Source of the DNA: a virus
Direction: 5' to 3' (one strand)
DNA length: 22,758 nt
IMG/VR virus record: IMGVR_UViG_3300043786_000008
Coordinates: 1 to 22,758 of that record
Position 1 is the first letter of the stretch, and the number at the start of each line of letters is the position of its first letter. The translations under genes and the position numbers were made by a program. The notes under the pieces were generated by a model. That model saw nothing but the letters and a program-made list of their open reading frames with translations, did not search any database and had not been told where the DNA came from. Shown piece after piece: positions 2,290 through 22,757 of this stretch.

Positions 2290-2708
2290 TGCGTCCCATC
2301 TATGAGACAGACGCTGACCTACAGCGCGAGAAGGAAGTACAGGAAGCACTGTTCCTTATGTGGGAAGTGGACTTCCACAAGCTACCTCGTGCCTACCATG
2401 TGGACTGGATGCTGACCAAGCGAGGAGAGGCCAAGGCATTTGCTGAACTCAAGTGCCGAAACAATCCTCGCAGTCAGTACCCAACCCTGATGCTGTCCAT
2501 GCACAAGTGGATGCACGGCAAGGCAATGGCACAGGAGATCGGTGGCAAGTTCCTAGTCATCGTCAAGTGGAGTGACGGCATCTTCTACCACACACAGGGC
2601 TGGTGTGACGTAACCTACGGAGTCGGAGGCAGGAAGGACAGAGGAGACAGTCAGGATATAGAACCAGTGGTCCATATCCCGACCGACTACTTCAAGCGGG
2701 TTACTTAG
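2289..2708 (+). CDS. PD-(D/E)XK nuclease-like protein
   Basis: This 139-residue protein starts at an ATG overlapping the previous stop (TAATG); a TTG at 2259 in the same frame is less likely. It contains YHVDWMLTK followed by GEAKAFAELKCR, that is Asp39-x13-Glu53-Leu-Lys55, on predicted beta strands preceded by a helix with Glu16/Glu19. This fits a PD-(D/E)XK nuclease core. The rest (FLVIVKWSDGIFYHTQG, about 98-114) looks like the later strands of the fold. The substrate cannot be told; a resolvase or trimming nuclease in phage recombination is plausible. Its 3' end overlaps the convergent Rz gene by 8 bases, so it is the last gene of the rightward operon. Confidence 0.6.
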   Translation: MRPIYETDADLQREKEVQEALFLMWEVDFHKLPRAYHVDWMLTKRGEAKAFAELKCRNNPRSQYPTLMLSMHKWMHGKAMAQEIGGKFLVIVKWSDGIFYHTQGWCDVTYGVGGRKDRGDSQDIEPVVHIPTDYFKRVT

Positions 2709-3177
2709 GGATTAAGGATTGGTACTGGGCTTGGCATTGCTTGAGGAGGACGACGGCTTCGGCTCCTCGGGCAGCTTCCCTTGCAAGAAATTCTCCATCC
2801 TCTTTAGAAAGTCCTGCTCCAGTACATACTGTGGGGGTGCATCCAGCACTGGTGGTACTGGGCACGGTACTGATCGGGTCGGGGGTGCGACTCGGCCTGT
2901 CGCGCAAGCTGTTATTAAGGGCAGTAACACGGCTATTAAGATCGCGTGTCTCACGGTCTTTCTCCTGTCTCAATCGGTCTGCGGTCTGCTGCATCAGCTT
3001 CTCTCGCTCCCGTGCAATCTGCTGGTCACGGGCATGGATAGCCTCAAGCTCTGCACGTTCAGCATCCCACTTAGCCTGTACCTGCAAGCGGCCTGACTCC
3101 TCGCCACGCATATACCCATACGCGCCAGCTACCCCAGCAGCAATGATGACAGCCAGCGCAGTGTAGGCGATGTTCAT
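2701..3177 (-). CDS. Rz: Rz-like inner-membrane spanin (i-spanin)
   Basis: This 158-residue protein has one N-terminal membrane anchor (ALAVIIAAGVAGAYGYM, about 7-23) followed by a long charged coiled coil (about 30-95, rich in Glu/Arg/Gln) and a Pro/Thr-rich stretch (about 98-115). This is the layout of lambda Rz, whose periplasmic rods join an outer-membrane lipoprotein to fuse the two membranes at the last step of lysis. A second gene with an outer-membrane lipoprotein signal is nested inside it in another frame, as in lambda Rz/Rz1, which makes the call firm. The start overlaps the stop of the upstream gene (ATGA) and no strong ribosome-binding site is present, so translation is probably coupled. 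Confidence 0.85.
   Translation of the reverse strand: MNIAYTALAVIIAAGVAGAYGYMRGEESGRLQVQAKWDAERAELEAIHARDQQIAREREKLMQQTADRLRQEKDRETRDLNSRVTALNNSLRDRPSRTPDPISTVPSTTSAGCTPTVCTGAGLSKEDGEFLAREAARGAEAVVLLKQCQAQYQSLIPK
2712..2954 (-). CDS. Rz1: Rz1-like outer-membrane lipoprotein spanin (o-spanin), nested in Rz
   Basis: This 80-residue protein is encoded wholly inside Rz in a different frame. A signal sequence HAILIAVLLPLITAC ends in a lipobox with the lipidated Cys at residue 17. The mature part is proline-rich (PP, CPVPPVLDAPP, PEEPKP), as in known Rz1 proteins. The start is GTG at 2954, preceded by AGGAG about 7 bases upstream, a good site. It should be anchored in the outer membrane and bind the tip of the Rz coiled coil. 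The C-terminus (SSSSSNAKPSTNP) is low-complexity. The nested arrangement means any mutation here affects both proteins. Confidence 0.85.
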   Translation of the reverse strand: MRHAILIAVLLPLITACATGRVAPPTRSVPCPVPPVLDAPPQYVLEQDFLKRMENFLQGKLPEEPKPSSSSSNAKPSTNP

Positions 3178-3861: not shown

Positions 3862-4084
3862 TCCTCCCCCCTTTGTCTTCCTTCGGTTCTGTCGTTACCT
3901 TGTCGCCACTGATCCACGGCTCCATGCGTTTCTGGTCTGCAAAGATATGGTCAGGGCAAGTCTGGTTTACTTCACAGACTGGCTTCTGACATTCCTTATT
4001 CGTCCAGTTCTCAGGGTTCTGGCAAGGGTATCGGTAACTCTGCTCACACCCAGCCAGCACCAACAAGATAAGCAGTCGGCTCAT
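3845..4084 (-). CDS. Small cysteine-rich lipoprotein
   Basis: This 79-residue protein has a very short signal (MSRLLILLVLAGC) whose lipobox places the lipidated Cys at residue 13. The mature part has five more cysteines (21, 32, 37, 43, 77) in a conserved-looking YRYPCQNPENW ... CEVNQTCPDHIF region. I recall similar small lipoproteins in marine phages, where their function is unknown. It starts at an ATG overlapping the endolysin stop (ATGA). It could be a second outer-membrane lysis factor, or a superinfection or envelope factor; the sequence does not decide. Confidence 0.7.
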   Translation of the reverse strand: MSRLLILLVLAGCEQSYRYPCQNPENWTNKECQKPVCEVNQTCPDHIFADQKRMEPWISGDKVTTEPKEDKGGRNDCAK

Positions 4085-4707
4085 CAGTGGCCTCCCATCA
4101 CATGGAGTGCATGGTTGTAATGCTTGATCCTATCTTCCAAACCAATGTAGCCACCATTGATCCTGCGTGTCAGCTCCTTGATGTCTCCACTGTCAGCCCA
4201 CTTGTTCAGGTTGTTTGTCTCCCAGAACCAGCAAGCAGACTGAGCCGCACCCTCAAACGTACCAAGGTACTCGGGCAGGTCATTGATGTTCATCTCCAGA
4301 CTGTCAGCAAATGCTTGATAGTTATTACGTCCGGTAAGTTGGATAAGACCACGACCACAGAAACGCCAGCCATCACCACTAGACTCATCACCATTACCCA
4401 TACGGTTTGCATACGCACGGTTGGCGATGTGCATTTGCTTGTTGAGTCTGGAGGAGTAGTCGTTGGCGATTGCATCTGTCGGGAAATACTTGGGAAAAAT
4501 TTTACGGAGAGTGGCAGGCTTGTAGTTCAGGTTCTCTTTGAGTACCATAAAGCCACCAGATTCATGAGCGCATTGGGCAACGAAGGCAGCTATTCGGCGG
4601 GGAGTATTGATGTCGTAGTCTGGTAGCAGTTGAGTTAGTGCTTCATGCCAGTCAGCTACATACGGATTCTTCGGTAGCATCTGTTTCAGTTGGTTCAGTG
4701 TAATCAT
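4084..4707 (-). CDS. GH19 chitinase-like endolysin
   Basis: This 207-residue single-domain protein carries family 19 glycoside hydrolase signatures: AAFVAQCAHESGGF with the likely catalytic Glu49, NLNYKP, the WRFCGRGLIQLTGRNNYQ substrate-site block (114-131), and a late INGGYIGLEDR (about 183-193). Phage GH19 enzymes cleave the glycan strands of peptidoglycan. There is no signal peptide, transmembrane anchor or cell-wall-binding domain, so export should depend on a holin. It is translationally linked to neighbours on both sides by ATGA overlaps (4704-4707 and 4084-4087 region). Length and motifs match complete family members. Confidence 0.9.
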   Translation of the reverse strand: MITLNQLKQMLPKNPYVADWHEALTQLLPDYDINTPRRIAAFVAQCAHESGGFMVLKENLNYKPATLRKIFPKYFPTDAIANDYSSRLNKQMHIANRAYANRMGNGDESSGDGWRFCGRGLIQLTGRNNYQAFADSLEMNINDLPEYLGTFEGAAQSACWFWETNNLNKWADSGDIKELTRRINGGYIGLEDRIKHYNHALHVMGGH

Positions 4708-9700: not shown

Positions 9701-12700
9701 TTATTTACCATATAAGCTATAGAATTTTTTGTTCCGGTCAATCATGGCACCTAGTTCTGGAAATTCCACGCTGTCAGACAGGAAGCCGTATTCGGTCAGG
9801 TCGGGAACTTCCGTCTGTCCCAGTTCGGGACTAGGGTCAAACCCAATCATTCTCAGTTTGGCAATACGGCGGTACTTCTTAATAACGCTATCCACAAACT
9901 TCTGAGCATCGCCCTTATTAAACTGCTCACCTGTTTCAATAGAGTATTTCTCTTTTTCTTTTAGCAAGTAAGGTACTGCCATCTCCAAGTTCATAGGAGC
10001 CGCTGTAGCCGTGTCTACGAACAAGGATGGGTCGATCATCACCTCTTGCCCATAAAGCTTCTTGTAGCGGTTGTATTGCGTCACAGACAGCCTTATGCCA
10101 TCCCATGTATCCCGTGGTCTGGATGTGCCGTGGTCAATGCTAACCATTGCCTCATTGTACGGATCACGCTTACCTTTGCTGCCCTGCACCATTGGGATGA
10201 CGTTTGCCATAAATTCAAACATATTGTTCTCGGCATACTTGCGGCGACCAATGTCGTCCAACTCTGCTGGCAATCCTTCGGATAGCGCTGGGATGCGGCT
10301 CTGAACCCGGTTCATCTGCTCATAGAAGATGCGAATATGCTCTGGCACATTCATCTGGTCAACACGGGTAGACCGGATTAGCGGGTCATTCAGACGCTCG
10401 ATGTGGGCAAGAGCTGACGCATTGGTTGAGCCAAGTATAGGAGTGCCGGTATACAGGACATCCACATACTGTTTGCCGATACGGTTTAAAACCTCATAAA
10501 CCTTTTCGCCACCGTCTTCGGCGCGAGTCCTCAAGATACCTACTAAGTCGCCTATAGCCTGCGCTGATGGGAGGTTCTTGATGTACTCAAGGTTTGAGCC
10601 AGCATAAGCCAAAGCCAACTTCGACCACTCATCTTCATCTGGCTTACCAGTGTGGAACCGCTGGGCATCAGCAAAGTCTGCCCCCATCGCCAGCACTGGG
10701 CTAAAGACTGAGAACCGTGCGTAGCTGACAAATGTAAATCCACTGAAGTTGCCTTGCCCTTTTGTCAGCGTTGTCAGCTTTGATAGCTTTGCCTCGACAT
10801 CTGGGCTAAGTTCACCCGGCTTGAAGATCAGCGAATACTTCTGCCAACCAAGTGCCTCAAGCGCCTTCTTGTCTTGGATGTCGGATGGACCAGAGCCGGT
10901 CATCCTGCCGTCTGTTGCAAACTGAACGGCAACGTATCCAGCCATCCCGCCCAGAGCTAAACGAGACATAGCCAGATCACGCTCTTTGCCACCAGCATTC
11001 CACGCATCCCAGAACTTGGGGCTAATGATATTCATACCCGGTGTGGCAGCAGCGGTATGCAAAAACTCCTGCGTGATAGCACGGGAGAACGGCAGGAACG
11101 GCTTTAGCGCAGTGCTTTGGAATAGCTTGTCTGTCTTCCAGTAAAACTCGTTAAGCTTTGTCTCGCGGTTAAAGTCTTCCGTAAATGTCGTTTGCTGCCT
11201 TGCTTTGTCCATGCTGGCTTGCATTGAGGCAGGACGCTCGTCAAGGAACGAAGCCACAACACGCTGAGTCTCCGCCAAAGCATCATCTGGGTTTGAGCCA
11301 GCAGCGATAAACTTATCGTATTCTCTTTGCGCGACGTGCCAAGCTTCCTCATGCAATTGCATCCGCGCAGTAGTAAGCCCGATAAAATCGTCTGCTGCTC
11401 TCATTGCACGGAACGGTACGCTGTACATATAGCCAAGTGCGTCCAACCCCTTACCGATAAAGCTATTGGTAAAGTCAGGGGTACGGAATAGCTCTTTGCT
11501 ACTAAACGGTAAGCGTACTGGCACATCGCTAAAAGCAGCACCAGACAGCGGGGCAACAGTTGCATCACCTTTGGCTGAAGCCCGAAGTGCATAGTCTTTA
11601 CTAAACGGGGTAGGCAAAGTAAAGTCAACACCCATGCTAGGGATCTGAACCCGTGGGCCACCTTTTGCCAGCGTTTCCCACGCATCCATAATTCCGGGGC
11701 CAAAGCCAGACAGACGGGCTTGTAAGTCACCCAAATAGAATCGCTCTCCCGGAGTCTTGCCAAGAGCCTCTACCACACCAGTGCGAGCCATCCCAATAGG
11801 GATAGATACCAGACGCTCAACTGGGGCGCGAACCGTGTTCAACACACCAGAAGTAAAGCTGAACGCATGAGGGGCAATATCGCTCAACAGGTTTGACTGC
11901 CATGTGTTGATCCACGCATCACGCAGACGCTGACCAAGACCTGCTTCGATAAGCTGGTTCTTACCTTTGCGGCTTGGCAAGGCAATATAATCATTGGCGA
12001 TCTGAAGCAATGACTTCTCGCCACCAACCTCATCTAATATCTTCCGGATATCCATTGGAGCAAAGCCGGGGCCACCATCCCTGACACGCTTAAACACGTT
12101 CATGGAACGGGCCACATCGACCTGTACGCCCTTCATGGTGCCGGTGATGACATTGTGGAAGGCCATCTGCTGACGCAACTGCAACTGGCCTGCTTGGTCA
12201 AGCTGACCAGCCGCCATCTTTTGCATCAAGTCGTCAAGTTGCTTTGCGCTTTGGTCGTGCAGGTCAACCACACCAGCAACAGTCTTTGCTAACTCAGACG
12301 ACCCAACGGTAGATTCAAGCGGCAATCCTTGCAGCAGGCGGTCAGCAACATTCTCACGGACACCAGCGTTAATCATCCGCATCTTGATAGAACGCAACGA
12401 CATCGTTGGCTCGTTCTTGACTGAACTCTCAGCCATCGCACGAACGGTCGCCTGCATCCCTTCGTTGTCAAATGCAAGGTTGCTAATCGGCGTTTCTTTG
12501 GGGCCAGCAGCAGGGCCAACAGCTTCTAGCCTCTGACGCTCTTGAATTACTCGTTGCGCCTCATCCAATGGCACAGGGGCAATACTTGGTTTAACTGGCT
12601 CGACCTTTGGAGCTACTGTTGTTTGGGCAGCAGGTGACGGTGTTGGCGCAATAGGAGGAGGGTCAGGCAAGATCTTAGGTTCTTCTTTAGCTCTTGCACC

Positions 12701-12928
12701 TTTCTCCAGCAAAGGCTTCAATGCTTTCTTTGGAGTAATCGCCTTTCTAACCGCGCCAAGTCCAAAGGCTGCTTGTGGCTCAAATTCCTCAAACGGCAAC
12801 TCAGGCTGCGGCATTACATTGCCAGCATCCTCAACCCCAGCATTAGGGTCAAATACGGGCGCAGGAGACAACTCGGCTGACTGAGCCATTTCTGATATCT
12901 TGCTGCCGATGTCTTTATTGATAGCCAT
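9701..12928 (-). CDS. Large internal virion / ejection protein (T7 gp16 position)
   Basis: This 1075-residue protein is the largest in the window and lies directly before the tail fibre, where T7-type phages place gp16, the protein that enters the host envelope during DNA ejection. Residues 1-140 are low-complexity and Pro-rich (about 83-120, PDPPPIAPTPSPAAQ), probably disordered. The rest is mostly helical, with some more hydrophobic stretches (for example MSRLALGGMAGYVAVQFATD). I see no lytic transglycosylase motif (no ESSGN or GLMQ-type sequence) such as T7 gp16 has at its N-terminus. The ATG overlaps the upstream stop (TAATG). The functional call rests on position, size and composition rather than on recognised domains. 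Confidence 0.6.
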   Translation of the reverse strand: MAINKDIGSKISEMAQSAELSPAPVFDPNAGVEDAGNVMPQPELPFEEFEPQAAFGLGAVRKAITPKKALKPLLEKGARAKEEPKILPDPPPIAPTPSPAAQTTVAPKVEPVKPSIAPVPLDEAQRVIQERQRLEAVGPAAGPKETPISNLAFDNEGMQATVRAMAESSVKNEPTMSLRSIKMRMINAGVRENVADRLLQGLPLESTVGSSELAKTVAGVVDLHDQSAKQLDDLMQKMAAGQLDQAGQLQLRQQMAFHNVITGTMKGVQVDVARSMNVFKRVRDGGPGFAPMDIRKILDEVGGEKSLLQIANDYIALPSRKGKNQLIEAGLGQRLRDAWINTWQSNLLSDIAPHAFSFTSGVLNTVRAPVERLVSIPIGMARTGVVEALGKTPGERFYLGDLQARLSGFGPGIMDAWETLAKGGPRVQIPSMGVDFTLPTPFSKDYALRASAKGDATVAPLSGAAFSDVPVRLPFSSKELFRTPDFTNSFIGKGLDALGYMYSVPFRAMRAADDFIGLTTARMQLHEEAWHVAQREYDKFIAAGSNPDDALAETQRVVASFLDERPASMQASMDKARQQTTFTEDFNRETKLNEFYWKTDKLFQSTALKPFLPFSRAITQEFLHTAAATPGMNIISPKFWDAWNAGGKERDLAMSRLALGGMAGYVAVQFATDGRMTGSGPSDIQDKKALEALGWQKYSLIFKPGELSPDVEAKLSKLTTLTKGQGNFSGFTFVSYARFSVFSPVLAMGADFADAQRFHTGKPDEDEWSKLALAYAGSNLEYIKNLPSAQAIGDLVGILRTRAEDGGEKVYEVLNRIGKQYVDVLYTGTPILGSTNASALAHIERLNDPLIRSTRVDQMNVPEHIRIFYEQMNRVQSRIPALSEGLPAELDDIGRRKYAENNMFEFMANVIPMVQGSKGKRDPYNEAMVSIDHGTSRPRDTWDGIRLSVTQYNRYKKLYGQEVMIDPSLFVDTATAAPMNLEMAVPYLLKEKEKYSIETGEQFNKGDAQKFVDSVIKKYRRIAKLRMIGFDPSPELGQTEVPDLTEYGFLSDSVEFPELGAMIDRNKKFYSLYGK

Positions 12929-14478
12929 TATTTCTGCCCTTCATCACCAGTAAGTGCTGCTCCAGCCGCCGTTACTGCTGCCGCGCCTTTTGCGACACGC
13001 CTTGTTTGTTGCGATTGTTCACGCTGCTTTTTTACACGATTTGCCGAAGCAGATACATTTGTCCGATCAGTGAGCATATCTGATTGTAATTTGCCTTCGC
13101 CTTTAGCAATTGACTTTAACCCACTTAATACTTGTGAGTCAGACCGAACCCCAAATGCGCCCTTGGATTTTTCTGTAAATTCGTTTAACCATACCTTTGC
13201 TTTAGCAATCCAAGAATTAGCCTCATACCTAGAACTCATAATCCTAGTGGCATTAACAGCCCAAAACTCAGATGGATTAACAAACTGATAATGTGCATTG
13301 TAATCTAGCGTACCGTTTTTAAATCCTTCAAAAATAGTCTTTTGTGCGTTTTTATCGCCAGAGATTGCTTTAGGTATTTCTTTTAAATACGATTGAACTT
13401 TTGGATCTGCCTTTCTATATGCAGCCAAATACGATCTTGTCCATTCATCGGTAATTCCATTTTGCACTTCGATTGGCATCATTTGTTCAGTATGATGCAA
13501 AATCTCATGGACACCAGTTGTATCGTTTGCCTTATCAGCAAATATGGTTGCGATCATATCCATTGATCTATAACCACCTGCTGTGCCTTTTTCTCCGGTT
13601 CCTTTTATTGATATTCCAAGTTCATTACCAAACTGAGGATTATTATCCAAAAGCCATTTAGCAAATCTAACTACTGGCTCTCTAAGTTGAACTTGTGCAT
13701 TAGGGTTAAGAGCGCCAAGCAATCTACGAGTTACTTCATCAGCACCACGAACCTTTTCTGCATCACTTACCTTTTCTGGTTTTTTCTGTAAAGCGTCATT
13801 AAGAAGCTTTGTGCCCTCTATGTATGATTGTTCATCCATAGCCCCAGATTCAAGTTTTTTAACCAAAGTTCCAAGACTACGCTTTGGCTGCACAATATAA
13901 CTTGTCAGGCCAGTTCTAGCGGCATAGGATTCAAACATCTCGCCAGCCACCGGGGCTAAAGACTTTACGCCCTTAACCGTAGCTTTTGCACCTTTAACAT
14001 AACCACCGGGGGCAAGAACTTCGCCAATAGTCTCATATGGGTTGTCGCCAGTTCCAACCTTCCCGACATTAGTGTCAATCCACTTCTTAATGTCCTCAGT
14101 ATTTGCCAAGATTGTTTCTTCTTGTAGCCCGCGCAAGAAAGCTTGAACCTTGCTCTCATCGCCACCACGGTTAAATATTGCAGTAACACCACGGCCAATC
14201 ATTTCAATGTCACCGGGCAAACCAACAAATCCTTGAGCAGCACCTTTGGCAGTAGCTAAACCAATTTCCCCCATGCCCTTGCCGACAGATAGCATTCCTT
14301 TGCCAGCCTCAGTTACATTCTCCATTGCAGACTGGCTTTCAAACTTCTTGATCTGTTGGGAACTAGCGCCACGGCTGCCCATCGCCAACTGCATACCGTC
14401 TAACTCATAGGCATCAGGTGCATCAGGGTATTCCCGAAAGTAAGAATAATCCCCGTAATATTTGAAATCGTCATCCAT
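12928..14478 (-). CDS. Virion-associated protein with HExxH metallopeptidase-like motif
   Basis: This 516-residue protein contains TTGVHEILHHTEQ, with His324-Glu325-x2-His328 forming a zincin-type HExxH motif, and a later conserved-looking NPSEFWAVNATR with Glu404, a candidate third zinc ligand. The N-terminal 100 residues include a Gly/Ala-rich helical part (GKGMLSVGKGMGEIGLATAKGAAQGFVG, about 60-87), and the C-terminus is basic with an Ala-rich end. It lies between the gp15-like and gp16-position genes with TAATG overlaps on both sides, so it is probably an internal virion protein carried into the cell. A peptidase acting on host or virion proteins, or on peptidoglycan peptides, is inference. 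Its DNA is AT-rich (21 G+C in the 60 bases 13261-13320). Confidence 0.6.
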   Translation of the reverse strand: MDDDFKYYGDYSYFREYPDAPDAYELDGMQLAMGSRGASSQQIKKFESQSAMENVTEAGKGMLSVGKGMGEIGLATAKGAAQGFVGLPGDIEMIGRGVTAIFNRGGDESKVQAFLRGLQEETILANTEDIKKWIDTNVGKVGTGDNPYETIGEVLAPGGYVKGAKATVKGVKSLAPVAGEMFESYAARTGLTSYIVQPKRSLGTLVKKLESGAMDEQSYIEGTKLLNDALQKKPEKVSDAEKVRGADEVTRRLLGALNPNAQVQLREPVVRFAKWLLDNNPQFGNELGISIKGTGEKGTAGGYRSMDMIATIFADKANDTTGVHEILHHTEQMMPIEVQNGITDEWTRSYLAAYRKADPKVQSYLKEIPKAISGDKNAQKTIFEGFKNGTLDYNAHYQFVNPSEFWAVNATRIMSSRYEANSWIAKAKVWLNEFTEKSKGAFGVRSDSQVLSGLKSIAKGEGKLQSDMLTDRTNVSASANRVKKQREQSQQTRRVAKGAAAVTAAGAALTGDEGQK

Positions 14479-16688
14479 TACTGAACTCTCCTGTTACGGG
14501 CTATTGTCTCAAGTTGTTCCTGATAGCGGATTACAGAATTAACAATAGCTTCTATTTCCCCCTCACTTGCCCCAGCCTTTTTAAGTTCGTCAACAAGCCT
14601 GCGACGATATGACTGAGAAGCCCGAACAGCTTTACCTTGTTCAAAGGTTGGTGGTATAGCAGCAAGATCAATATTTGCTTCCTGCGCTTTTTTAGGCAAG
14701 CTGCTGCCCTTTTGACCAAATGCAGAATTCAAATCATTTTTAGTGTTTTCATATCTTTTCTGCTGCTCATCACTCAAAAATCTTTTGCGGACATTTCTTG
14801 CCGCGTCATCCATAGTGGGAGGTGACTTACTTTTATCACTCTTTTCCCAGTCAGCCTGTAGCCTACTAAACTCAAGCTTGATTGCCTCCTGTGCTGCCAA
14901 TTCTGTTTGCGCTTTGGATTGCGGATTTCTAACGCCAGAATCCTCGACAATGTCACCCGCACCGCGTTTAGCCATTGCGTCTAACGCTAACTTTCTGTCG
15001 GCAGGACGTTTGGAAAGAGATTCAACGGTATTGCCATTAATCCTTTTCCCGCGAGAAAAAGCATAAACTTGACGCGCATCAGTTATTAGATTGTTGTCTA
15101 TTCGGTAGGTTAATTCAGTGACAGCTTCTGAATCGTTTTCGACTGGCTCTGGTTTTGCTGCCAATAACGTAGGCCAGTTATCAATATCCGCAAGCGTAAG
15201 ACCTCTAGCCTTAACAGCCACGTCCAACTGCTGTTCGGTTGATATTGTTTTGTTTCGCAATTGAAATTCAATTTGCTGAATGTCTGCTTTTTTAGCAAGC
15301 TCTCTTGCGTCTTTAGGAAGAAACTCGCCAGCCAACTTTAATGCAGTATCAGGCTTTATGCGATTACCCCTAGCAAAACGAAGTATTTCTTCTGTTGTTG
15401 TAAGGTTAGGATCTTTCCTACTTAACTTATCGCGCAGAATAGCCACTGACTCGTAGTCATCCTCAACGTCCTTCTTTAACATTGCTGGCAAATCTACTTG
15501 CACAAACTTTGCGCTAACAACGGTAGAGTCGTTATTTGAGATTTCCCTTAATGTATTAAGTGCAGTAGCCTTTTCATCCTCTGTTGAATTCATGTCCAGA
15601 TAGGTCATGGTTGCAGAGTTGGCTCTACTGGTTAAGTCAATCTTTTGAATATCCTTGTCTTTTTGTTTTATATCAATAAGCTGCTGGTACTGCATTGCCA
15701 TCTTGTCGCGGGCTTTCTTCTGGTCTGGCAAAGACATACTGTTCCAGACACGCTGCAAGTCAGGCGGCAAAGTGCCAGAGTTTATTCTGGCATTCAGTGA
15801 GGCCAGATCACCGCCAAGACCTTCCATCCGACTGACAACAGCGTTCTCTAAGTAAGCTGTCTTAATGTCTCGCTCAATCGTGCCAAGCTGCTCTAATGCA
15901 AAATTACCTGCGTCTGCGCCACCGAGAGTAATAGCGTTGGTTACAATACGGGCCTTCTCTGCCTCAATCTCTTGATTAATTGAAAGTCCCGGAACGGGCA
16001 AGGCATTCTGAATAATGTTGGCAACTGTATTTGAATAAGTATCAATTTCTGATGCAATCTTTACTTTGTTCTTTGCTAAAGCAATTTCAGTTTCTTTTTT
16101 AGCAGCGAATTGCAAAACTCGATTGGCATGAGTTGCCGCCGTTGCCCGATACTTATAAGCAGCATCCGGGCTAACAGCAGCCAAAGATGAACCCCAACCC
16201 TTAATCATTGATTGAAAATCAGCAGTAACCTTTTGAGTGCTTACATCGTAAGGGGTTATGCCATCCTCATATTTACCAGTCTCAATGCGTCGCTGAACGA
16301 TACCAGCCGCTTTGGTAATTTCTACTTCAGCATGGGCCGAAAGCTCAAGCGAACGAAACTTTTGGACAGAAGCCTGATAAGCATTGAGGGTGAAGTTTTT
16401 CTTAAATGCACCGGGATCACCCTTACTCATTGCTATCAACTGGTCTTGATTTGGCGGGTTCTCCATTACAAACTGATCGCCAGCAGCTTCAGCCAAGCGT
16501 TCAGCTTGTGAAAACATAGAGGTAGATAATCCAGAGATAACCCGGCCCAACGTAGACGCAGACTCTGCTTGTGCTTGATAAGCGATCTCAGGCCGCTGCG
16601 TCCCAAAGTTCATGTTGGGCTGCGGAAGATTCGACACCCCTGTTAATGGGACGTTTCCTGATTGAAGTCTTCTGATTGGATCAGCCAT
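14478..16688 (-). CDS. Internal virion protein, T7 gp15-like
   Basis: This 736-residue protein is close to the size of T7 gp15 (about 750) and follows a gp14-like gene in the same order as in T7. It is almost entirely helical, highly charged and Gln/Lys-rich (for example IVQRRIETGKYEDGI, LPPDLQRVWNSMSLPDQ, IEFQLRNKTISTEQQ), with no membrane span or enzymatic motif visible. In T7 the equivalent protein builds, with gp14 and gp16, the internal core and the periplasmic ejection tunnel. Its ATG lies 5 bases after the upstream stop. The assignment is by position, length and composition. Confidence 0.7.
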   Translation of the reverse strand: MADPIRRLQSGNVPLTGVSNLPQPNMNFGTQRPEIAYQAQAESASTLGRVISGLSTSMFSQAERLAEAAGDQFVMENPPNQDQLIAMSKGDPGAFKKNFTLNAYQASVQKFRSLELSAHAEVEITKAAGIVQRRIETGKYEDGITPYDVSTQKVTADFQSMIKGWGSSLAAVSPDAAYKYRATAATHANRVLQFAAKKETEIALAKNKVKIASEIDTYSNTVANIIQNALPVPGLSINQEIEAEKARIVTNAITLGGADAGNFALEQLGTIERDIKTAYLENAVVSRMEGLGGDLASLNARINSGTLPPDLQRVWNSMSLPDQKKARDKMAMQYQQLIDIKQKDKDIQKIDLTSRANSATMTYLDMNSTEDEKATALNTLREISNNDSTVVSAKFVQVDLPAMLKKDVEDDYESVAILRDKLSRKDPNLTTTEEILRFARGNRIKPDTALKLAGEFLPKDARELAKKADIQQIEFQLRNKTISTEQQLDVAVKARGLTLADIDNWPTLLAAKPEPVENDSEAVTELTYRIDNNLITDARQVYAFSRGKRINGNTVESLSKRPADRKLALDAMAKRGAGDIVEDSGVRNPQSKAQTELAAQEAIKLEFSRLQADWEKSDKSKSPPTMDDAARNVRKRFLSDEQQKRYENTKNDLNSAFGQKGSSLPKKAQEANIDLAAIPPTFEQGKAVRASQSYRRRLVDELKKAGASEGEIEAIVNSVIRYQEQLETIARNRRVQ

Positions 16689-16693
16689 GATAT

Positions 16694-17380
16694 TTATGTC
16701 TTAAACGGATAAGTCATTGCAAAGTTTGTCCCGGCTTTAGCCAACTCAGCGCCAGCCAACAAACCGCCAGTTTCTTTTGCTATTGCACCTGCCTTACGCA
16801 ATGTGCCAGCATTGGCAATCGCTGCTTCACGCTCATAAAATGCCATATCATATGACTGTTTCAACATTGTCGTAGCGTCTTCCAAACCCAATATCCGGGC
16901 TGTCATAGCATTTAAATCGGTAATACCTACGTCCTGATAAACCTCGCGCACATTCGCGCCACGAACGCCTTGATACGAGCCGCCAGTAGACACGACACCA
17001 GATGCATAGCCACGAGCCAGAATAGCGGCATTGGTAGCCCGCAAGTTCTTTAGCTGGGTATTGGCCTGAATCTTGTAGTTCAGCGTGTCGTACTCGATCT
17101 TTAACAGGTTGCGCTTAAATGCCGCCTCACCATACTCAGCAGCCTTGTCTGCCCGCAAGCCAGCCATTCTCAAGGCTTCCTGCGCCTGAACTGCGTACCC
17201 AGCCTGTTGGTAATAACCTGCCGCTTGCTGGCTATAAGCTGCACCAATGCCTGCAATAAGGCCGCTAGCCGCAGCCATTCCCATTGCTTGGGTCGGCGTA
17301 AAGCCAGATGAAGCCGACCCACCTCCCCCAGCTACCACGTCGGGAGAACCTCCTTGGCCTTGTATGTATGGCGCTACCAT
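16694..17380 (-). CDS. Internal virion protein, T7 gp14-like
   Basis: This 228-residue protein begins with a Gly/Ser-rich leader (GGSPDVVAGGGGSASSG), then a hydrophobic Ala/Gly segment (QAMGMAAASGLIAGIGAAYSQQ, about 31-52), a Gln/Ala-rich helix (QQAAGYYQQAGYAVQAQEALR) and a long charged helical body ending with another Ala/Gly stretch. Size, the hydrophobic segment and position between nozzle and gp15-like genes match T7 gp14, which forms the outer-membrane channel of the ejection apparatus. The ATG follows the tail-nozzle stop with no gap. This is a positional and compositional call. Confidence 0.72.
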   Translation of the reverse strand: MVAPYIQGQGGSPDVVAGGGGSASSGFTPTQAMGMAAASGLIAGIGAAYSQQAAGYYQQAGYAVQAQEALRMAGLRADKAAEYGEAAFKRNLLKIEYDTLNYKIQANTQLKNLRATNAAILARGYASGVVSTGGSYQGVRGANVREVYQDVGITDLNAMTARILGLEDATTMLKQSYDMAFYEREAAIANAGTLRKAGAIAKETGGLLAGAELAKAGTNFAMTYPFKT

Positions 17381-22217: not shown

Positions 22218-22468
22218 AGGTTCCTCGCTCTATGTATGCGGGACTCAACCTCTTTAACTAAAGAGCATCGTCCCTCTAAAAAATAACCGTAGGATGGATC
22301 ACTCCCCGGTCCCCAGCATGGCTGCTCAATAGTTATCTCTCGAAACCACTTGAGCAACTTTTGCCCTTCCTCTGTGCCAAAAACTCGCAAGCACAGCTTA
22401 TCCATATCACTCGATTGCGGAGGTGCCATTGCTTCTTGCATTGCCTCCAGATCATCCCACCCTGCCAT
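22214..22468 (-). CDS. Bbp19-like conserved phage protein
   Basis: This 84-residue protein contains LRVFGTEEGQKLLKWFREITIEQPCWGPGSDPSYGYFLEG and a basic C-terminal helix KEVESRIHRARN, a pattern I associate with the Bbp19 family of small proteins encoded between head genes of podovirus-like phages. Its function is unknown. The ATG at 22468 has GGGAGG about 5 bases upstream even though it overlaps the cupin gene by 17 bases. Its TGA overlaps the TTG start of scaffold, so the two are probably co-translated. Confidence 0.65.
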   Translation of the reverse strand: MAGWDDLEAMQEAMAPPQSSDMDKLCLRVFGTEEGQKLLKWFREITIEQPCWGPGSDPSYGYFLEGRCSLVKEVESRIHRARNL

Positions 22469-22757
22469 AAGCCTCCCTGTTTGGCACGATTACTCCATCT
22501 TCCTCCTCTGCCTGCTCTGTCGCGTGTATGCAGTACCAGACGGTATCTGTCTGTGTAATGATGACGTGCGACTTATCTGCTTCTATTTCTATGCAGGCAG
22601 GAGCCTTGTAAAACTTCTGTTCCCCATCTATGTCTACAACCACTTCACCTTTTGCCAATATAGACAGATGAGAATACGAGTGGACGTGCTGCGGAACCGC
22701 CCACCCTTTTGGCAAAAAGTATTCTTTCCCGTATATTCCATCAGCGAAGTGATGGCG
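22452..22757 (-). CDS. Small cupin-domain protein, 5' truncated by window edge
   Basis: The frame stays open to the right edge of the window, so the start is not visible; 101 residues can be read. The sequence GWAVPQHVHSYSHLSILAKG fits cupin motif 1, G-x5-H-x-H-x3-E-x6-G, except that the Glu is replaced by His; a later His in ADKSHVII sits where motif 2 supplies a metal ligand. Upstream residues ADGIYGKEYFLPKG fit the preceding strands. The protein is therefore a single small beta-barrel that probably binds a metal. Cupins have very diverse roles (enzymes, sugar-binding, virion parts), so no reaction is proposed. A TTG at 22715 inside the frame is not needed as a start. Confidence 0.7.
   Translation of the reverse strand, partial: RHHFADGIYGKEYFLPKGWAVPQHVHSYSHLSILAKGEVVVDIDGEQKFYKAPACIEIEADKSHVIITQTDTVWYCIHATEQAEEEDGVIVPNREAYGRVG

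Follow-up and report, generated by a model that had tools for sequence, protein, structure and literature searches.

We find that a T7-like podovirus carries in its ejection operon what we take, with moderate confidence, to be an exchangeable and probably virion-delivered effector slot, loaded here with a zinc peptidase. The window, by which we mean the whole 22,758-nucleotide stretch of viral DNA analysed, encodes the slot and its neighbours as follows:

12928..14478, minus strand: focal gene, 516 aa, a conserved N-terminal part followed by a putative zinc-peptidase payload; overlaps the start of the gp16-like gene
9701..12928, minus strand: internal virion protein of 1075 aa in the gp16 position (match to phrog_6651, internal virion protein, E 1.7e-14)
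14478..16688, minus strand: gp15-position protein, 736 aa, flanking the slot; assigned by position and by conservation in relatives
16694..17380, minus strand: gp14-position small internal protein, 228 aa; assigned by gene order, with homologues in relatives
12924..12943, minus strand: Shine-Dalgarno-like GAAGG and TAATG overlap with the downstream gene

The focal open reading frame is real, but it lies on the minus strand. An earlier note on this DNA placed it between gp15-like and gp16-position genes, which the matches of its neighbours and the relatives bear out. The gp16-like protein also matches its gp16-like counterparts in P-SSP7 and S-TIP37. The tail tubular B protein shares 61% identity with that of Methylophilales phage MEP301, and the window phage is therefore a relative of the marine OM43 podoviruses. 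Judging from the TAATG overlap, translation of the focal gene is probably coupled to that of gp16. The conserved C-terminal tail of the focal protein, ...(D/E)GQK, was considered as a signal and rejected, because it is accounted for by the downstream ribosome-binding site and the TAATG overlap of the next gene. In MEP301 (L012:2032-5131) the gp16-like protein is apparently split into two overlapping ORFs, gp23 and gp24, perhaps by a frameshift or a sequencing error. Elsewhere in the window, nested minus-strand ORFs (2701-3177 and 2712-2954) resemble an Rz/Rz1 spanin pair and are accompanied by a GH19-type endolysin at 4084-4707, and a small cupin-like ORF (22452-22715, minus strand) adjoins the head genes.

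The payload contains two motifs within one predicted domain:

13069..13761, minus strand: predicted gluzincin-type metallopeptidase domain, residues 240-470 (AF2 pLDDT and fold matches)
13492..13509, minus strand: HEILHH, residues 324-329, invariant in 75 sequences except I326
13258..13278, minus strand: NPSEFWA, residues 401-407, placed by the model on helix 402-419; E404 invariant

H324 and H328 are the proposed zinc ligands, E325 the proposed catalytic base and E404 the proposed third ligand. The earlier note had read HEILHH and Glu404 from the sequence and had allowed that the motif might be lost in homologues; both are present, and the motif is invariant instead. In the alignment of 75 sequences, whose members are mostly 31-42% identical to the window protein, the invariant columns are G245, Y303, H324, E325, L327, H328, H329, E331, Y397, S403, E404 and W406. 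Given that the relatives were retrieved using both motifs as patterns, loci found through one motif alone were checked for the other: the 7 loci without HEILHH keep HE[V/M/L]LHHxE, and the 9 without SE[YF]WAVN keep SE[FY]W. HExxH appears in 21 of 20,000 shuffles of the focal protein; the motif is not a product of chance. The domain is under purifying selection, with dN/dS of 0.08-0.19. H396 was rejected as a ligand, its column being variable (H, F, Y, N, D), and a HExxH in the gp16-like protein of contig L120 (HEFLH) was judged to be chance; the window's gp16-like protein has QEFLH. Searches of the focal protein against Pfam, PHROG, NCBIfam and PDB sequences return nothing significant, and a plasmid search returns no match; 35 of the 75 members match PHROG, solely through the whole-protein family 'DarB-like antirestriction'. 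Ahead of the zincin domain, the sequence of residues 196-226 (window 13801-13893) suggests a possible SHOCT/GvpG-like helical hairpin, and the SHOCT and GvpG Pfam models are matched by 22 and 32 of the 75 members, mostly weakly.

In the AlphaFold2 model, pLDDT exceeds 90 for most of residues 240-470; there, a three-stranded sheet (288-292, 301-304, 309-313) is followed by the HExxH helix (321-333) and then by helix 402-419 with Glu404. Foldseek alone gives no match in the PDB with E below 0.001, and such weak E-values indicate a remote relation to solved folds. With VIA-align, zinc metallopeptidases come out top in both searches and make up almost all of the nearest solved structures; the best match is to the catalytic region of anthrax lethal factor (M34, Z about 8), followed by vibriolysin and LasB of family M4, M1 aminopeptidases and M3 peptidases. 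Because Z is moderate, 8.0 at most, the case for the fold rests on the consistency of the hits and on the invariant residues. A conserved HExxH, a third-ligand Glu on a later helix and a zincin core fold, the marks of a gluzincin, are all found, and the structure prediction that the earlier note proposed as a check agrees with a gluzincin in helix, sheet, motif layout and fold matches. As modelled, the payload is probably a gluzincin-type zinc peptidase, and a genuine-looking one.

The payload is present or absent as a clean block behind a constant N-terminal part:

13933..14478, minus strand: constant N-terminal part, residues 1 to about 182, found nearly stand-alone in L096, L097 and L098
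12969..13931, minus strand: in-frame payload block of 963 bp (residues about 183-504) that L109 and L112 lack
13891..13986, minus strand: junction, residues 165-196 (...SLAPVAGEMFESYAARTGL...), common to slot proteins with other payloads

A search with the gp16-like gene identifies L096, L097 and L098 as the closest relatives, with gp16-like proteins 92-94% identical, and at the focal position these have the N-terminal part alone (contigs L109 and L112 are L096 and L098; L097 and L098, whose proteins are near-identical, may represent a single species). Compared with the payload-less proteins of L097 and L096, the N-terminal part shows 75.8-80.6% identity (residues 3-172 or 8-172). Between the window and L109, DNA identity is about 73% up to residue 172, then the block is missing, and identity is 89.7% from 13 bases before the gene end through the gp16-like gene; on the gp16 side the flanks of L109 and L112 are 87-90% identical to the window in DNA. 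The figure of 963 bp comes from a joint alignment, on which the precise ends of the block depend. GC is 0.407 over residues 173-510 versus 0.511 in the gp16-like gene. Except for MEP301, the slot relatives are metagenomic contigs. MEP301 gp25 gives a weak match to the N-terminal part (E 0.0022 among about 205 sequences, nothing by BLASTP), and the basis for its homology is mainly positional.

In other relatives the same position holds other domains:

L127:5498-6808, L133:9755-11140 and L136:8278-9846: ART-PolyVal (ADP-ribosyltransferase) payload; L127 above the curated cut-off (E 1.2e-8), L133 and L136 just below it
L124:9674-11638, L131:6600-8675 and, weakly, L126:9734-12592: DUF7178 (PF23802) payload
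L125:9755-12112: slot protein of 786 aa whose payload of about 550 aa matches no library
L102:6009-6998: BA3-type domain, resembling a portion of a Thalassomonas phage BA3 protein of 2,631 aa

The slot of L101, L105, L129 and L130 has nothing beyond the N-terminal part. Related slot proteins agree in front and part ways behind: L130 and L131 are 80% identical over residues 1-200 and then diverge, the fronts of L101 and L102 are 82% identical over 157 residues and their backs differ, and L006, with a zincin, and L102, with another payload, are 67% identical over 173 residues. The zincin-containing stretch of L006 is 65% identical to that of the window, its gp15-like and gp16-like neighbours just 22-23%. 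The middle of the N-terminal region occurs in versions (the window type, an L006/L102 type and an L005/L129/L136 type), and the junction is 48% identical to residues 171-203 of L127 (E 2e-4) and found also in L133 and L125, its pattern LAPxAGEM...YxxRtGL being common to different payload classes. The BA3 protein is encoded near a gene annotated DNA ejection, and a relative of the DUF7178 payload also adjoins the portal gene in Roseobacter phage CRP-738.

A question arises, does the peptidase serve entry? The earlier note had suggested that it may, by cutting wall peptides or envelope proteins as the DNA enters, in place of the transglycosylase of T7 gp16. The ejection-operon position would suit such an enzyme, as would the lack of an SLT transglycosylase, of which neither the window nor six related contigs of 34-36 kb give any sign, just as the note had seen no such motif in the four internal virion proteins. 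However, the zincin is found nowhere in the whole 34-36 kb contigs of the payload-less relatives, and SLT is also absent from these sister contigs; genome entry therefore does not need the peptidase. Moreover, the ART-like replacement payloads cannot cut the wall, and among the fold matches listed there is no peptidoglycan peptidase, the nearest being protein- or peptide-cutting gluzincins. We regard the entry role as highly improbable; of that claim the zinc metallopeptidase-like domain in the gene of a probable ejected protein stands, and the replacement of the transglycosylase is not favoured. Given that the enzyme is missing or replaced in close sisters, it is unlikely to be required for DNA entry or virion assembly, and the presence of an ADP-ribosyltransferase or other domains in its place suggests an accessory effector.

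Relatives of the domain are encoded by 293 viral contigs (profile-guided scan; 80 kept) and at eight bacterial-genome loci. Outside the window group and L014, a 498-aa protein laid out as the focal protein is, nearly all of them are parts of ORFs longer than 1,000 aa. In tblastn against phages, residues 202-469 are 40-42% identical to a part of the ~4,900-aa proteins of Erwinia phages PEp14, Pavtok and Stean, where the domain sits between LPD37 and LPD39 and the same protein has SLT, a methylase and a SNF2 helicase. The homologues are modules between LPD domains within phage polyvalent proteins of 1,000-4,900 aa, adjoining LPD37/LPD39, LPD1/LPD5/LPD38, SLT and ART in the giant ones; fusion to polyvalent domains (LPD, ART, SNF2, MTase, lysozyme) is seen in homologues and not in the window protein. 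Some polyvalent relatives have a second HExxH stretch (L045:5796-9428, L022, L024, L032, L037), which in L045 overlaps DUF6782, a putative metallopeptidase family. Might the focal product be a late cytoplasmic effector, with no place in the virion, whose gene lies by chance between structural genes? We consider this improbable, since its translation is probably coupled to that of gp16, the constant N-terminal part is kept at the same place even without a payload, and the same modules recur in giant proteins that phage virion operons encode. The operon and these shared modules suggest delivery with the genome.

In the effector slot that we propose, the constant N-terminal part of about 170 residues would be the virion-loading or delivery part, bringing the protein into the head or the ejection apparatus, and the junction would connect it to the exchangeable C-terminal enzyme. 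The protein would enter the cell together with the DNA. H324, H328 and E404 would bind zinc, E325 would activate water, and the peptidase would cleave some host protein soon after infection, such as a defence factor or one whose inactivation the phage requires.

The main rival, which we think rather unlikely, is self-processing, in which the peptidase cuts its own chain or a neighbouring ejection protein during or after packaging, freeing it from the N-terminal delivery part. Zincin-like MPTase domains are known in polyvalent proteins such as P1 DdrB and the C-terminal part of the N4 virion RNA polymerase, and Iyer et al. 2017 proposed that polyvalent-type metallopeptidases, that of DdrB included, process their own polypeptide (PMC5512222). 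The HExxHHxE pattern recurs in DdrB as HELGHHLE at 872, and in a single-sequence profile comparison the best hit falls exactly there, HELGHHLE being aligned to HEILHHTE. The hit is weak, however (probability 3.7%; one shuffle reached 2.5%), and N4 vRNAP is not aligned at the motif and not significant; a search for diverse DdrB relatives returned near-identical P1-like copies alone. Sisters with near-identical gp16-like proteins lack the peptidase, and processing of gp15 or gp16 therefore cannot need it. The peptidase is the sole enzymatic domain of the focal protein, so that there is no second payload to release.

With the effector slot as the preferred reading, an unnamed hypothetical protein becomes a testable candidate for an injected peptidase, and the slot could be mined for phage effectors of the first minutes of infection. 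The N-terminal part, which occurs both with a payload and without one, is an obvious candidate for the signal that loads proteins into T7-like particles. About 290 viral contigs contain the zincin domain, which no family model covers and which merits one. That marine and freshwater T7-like podoviruses have a dedicated, exchangeable slot, into which recombination brings one enzyme at a time for injection along with the DNA, seems to us an even bet; if true, small and apparently lytic phages would possess a polymorphic effector system.

How does the slot compare with known systems? T7 gp16 is an internal virion protein with a transglycosylase. Its counterpart here adjoins the focal gene in the same ejection operon but has no SLT domain, and the zincin is not its replacement. 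With the polyvalent MPTases the focal domain shares HExxH and a downstream Glu, a lethal-factor-like fold neighbourhood and a place among phage late genes, and its homologues lie in giant proteins, flanked by LPD37/LPD39 or near LPD1/LPD5/LPD38. Unlike them, the focal protein is 516 aa long and has one enzyme, with no second enzymatic domain (no Pfam hit elsewhere), in a slot swapped for other enzymes, and its domain matches no Pfam or NCBIfam model. JC1 gp69, a DarB-like protein, is found in virions (PMC9144972); we do not count it as direct support, because Bcep22-type phages are not matched by the focal domain. The MuF polymorphic toxins of temperate phages (Jamet et al. 2017, PMC5576092) likewise join a constant structural N-terminus to variable C-terminal enzymes and are proposed to be phage-delivered. 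In contrast to them, the focal protein has no MuF domain (Pfam, E up to 10), the slot belongs to a T7-like podovirus and sits among its ejection-protein genes, and it has no adjacent downstream immunity gene; in the window and in all six slots inspected the gene end overlaps the gp16-like start, leaving no room for one. The internal proteins of T4 have a short constant targeting part and variable injected payloads, and the slot is likened to them by this layout, although T4 is a myovirus and the phage here a T7-like podovirus. Their capsid targeting sequence has been reviewed (PMC3012670, PMC9026906). The literature searched, largely without subscription journals, yielded no description of such a slot. 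Polyvalent MPTase and ART modules, MuF toxins and T4 internal proteins are known kinds; the swappable slot for one enzyme in the T7-like ejection operon of environmental podoviruses appears to be new.
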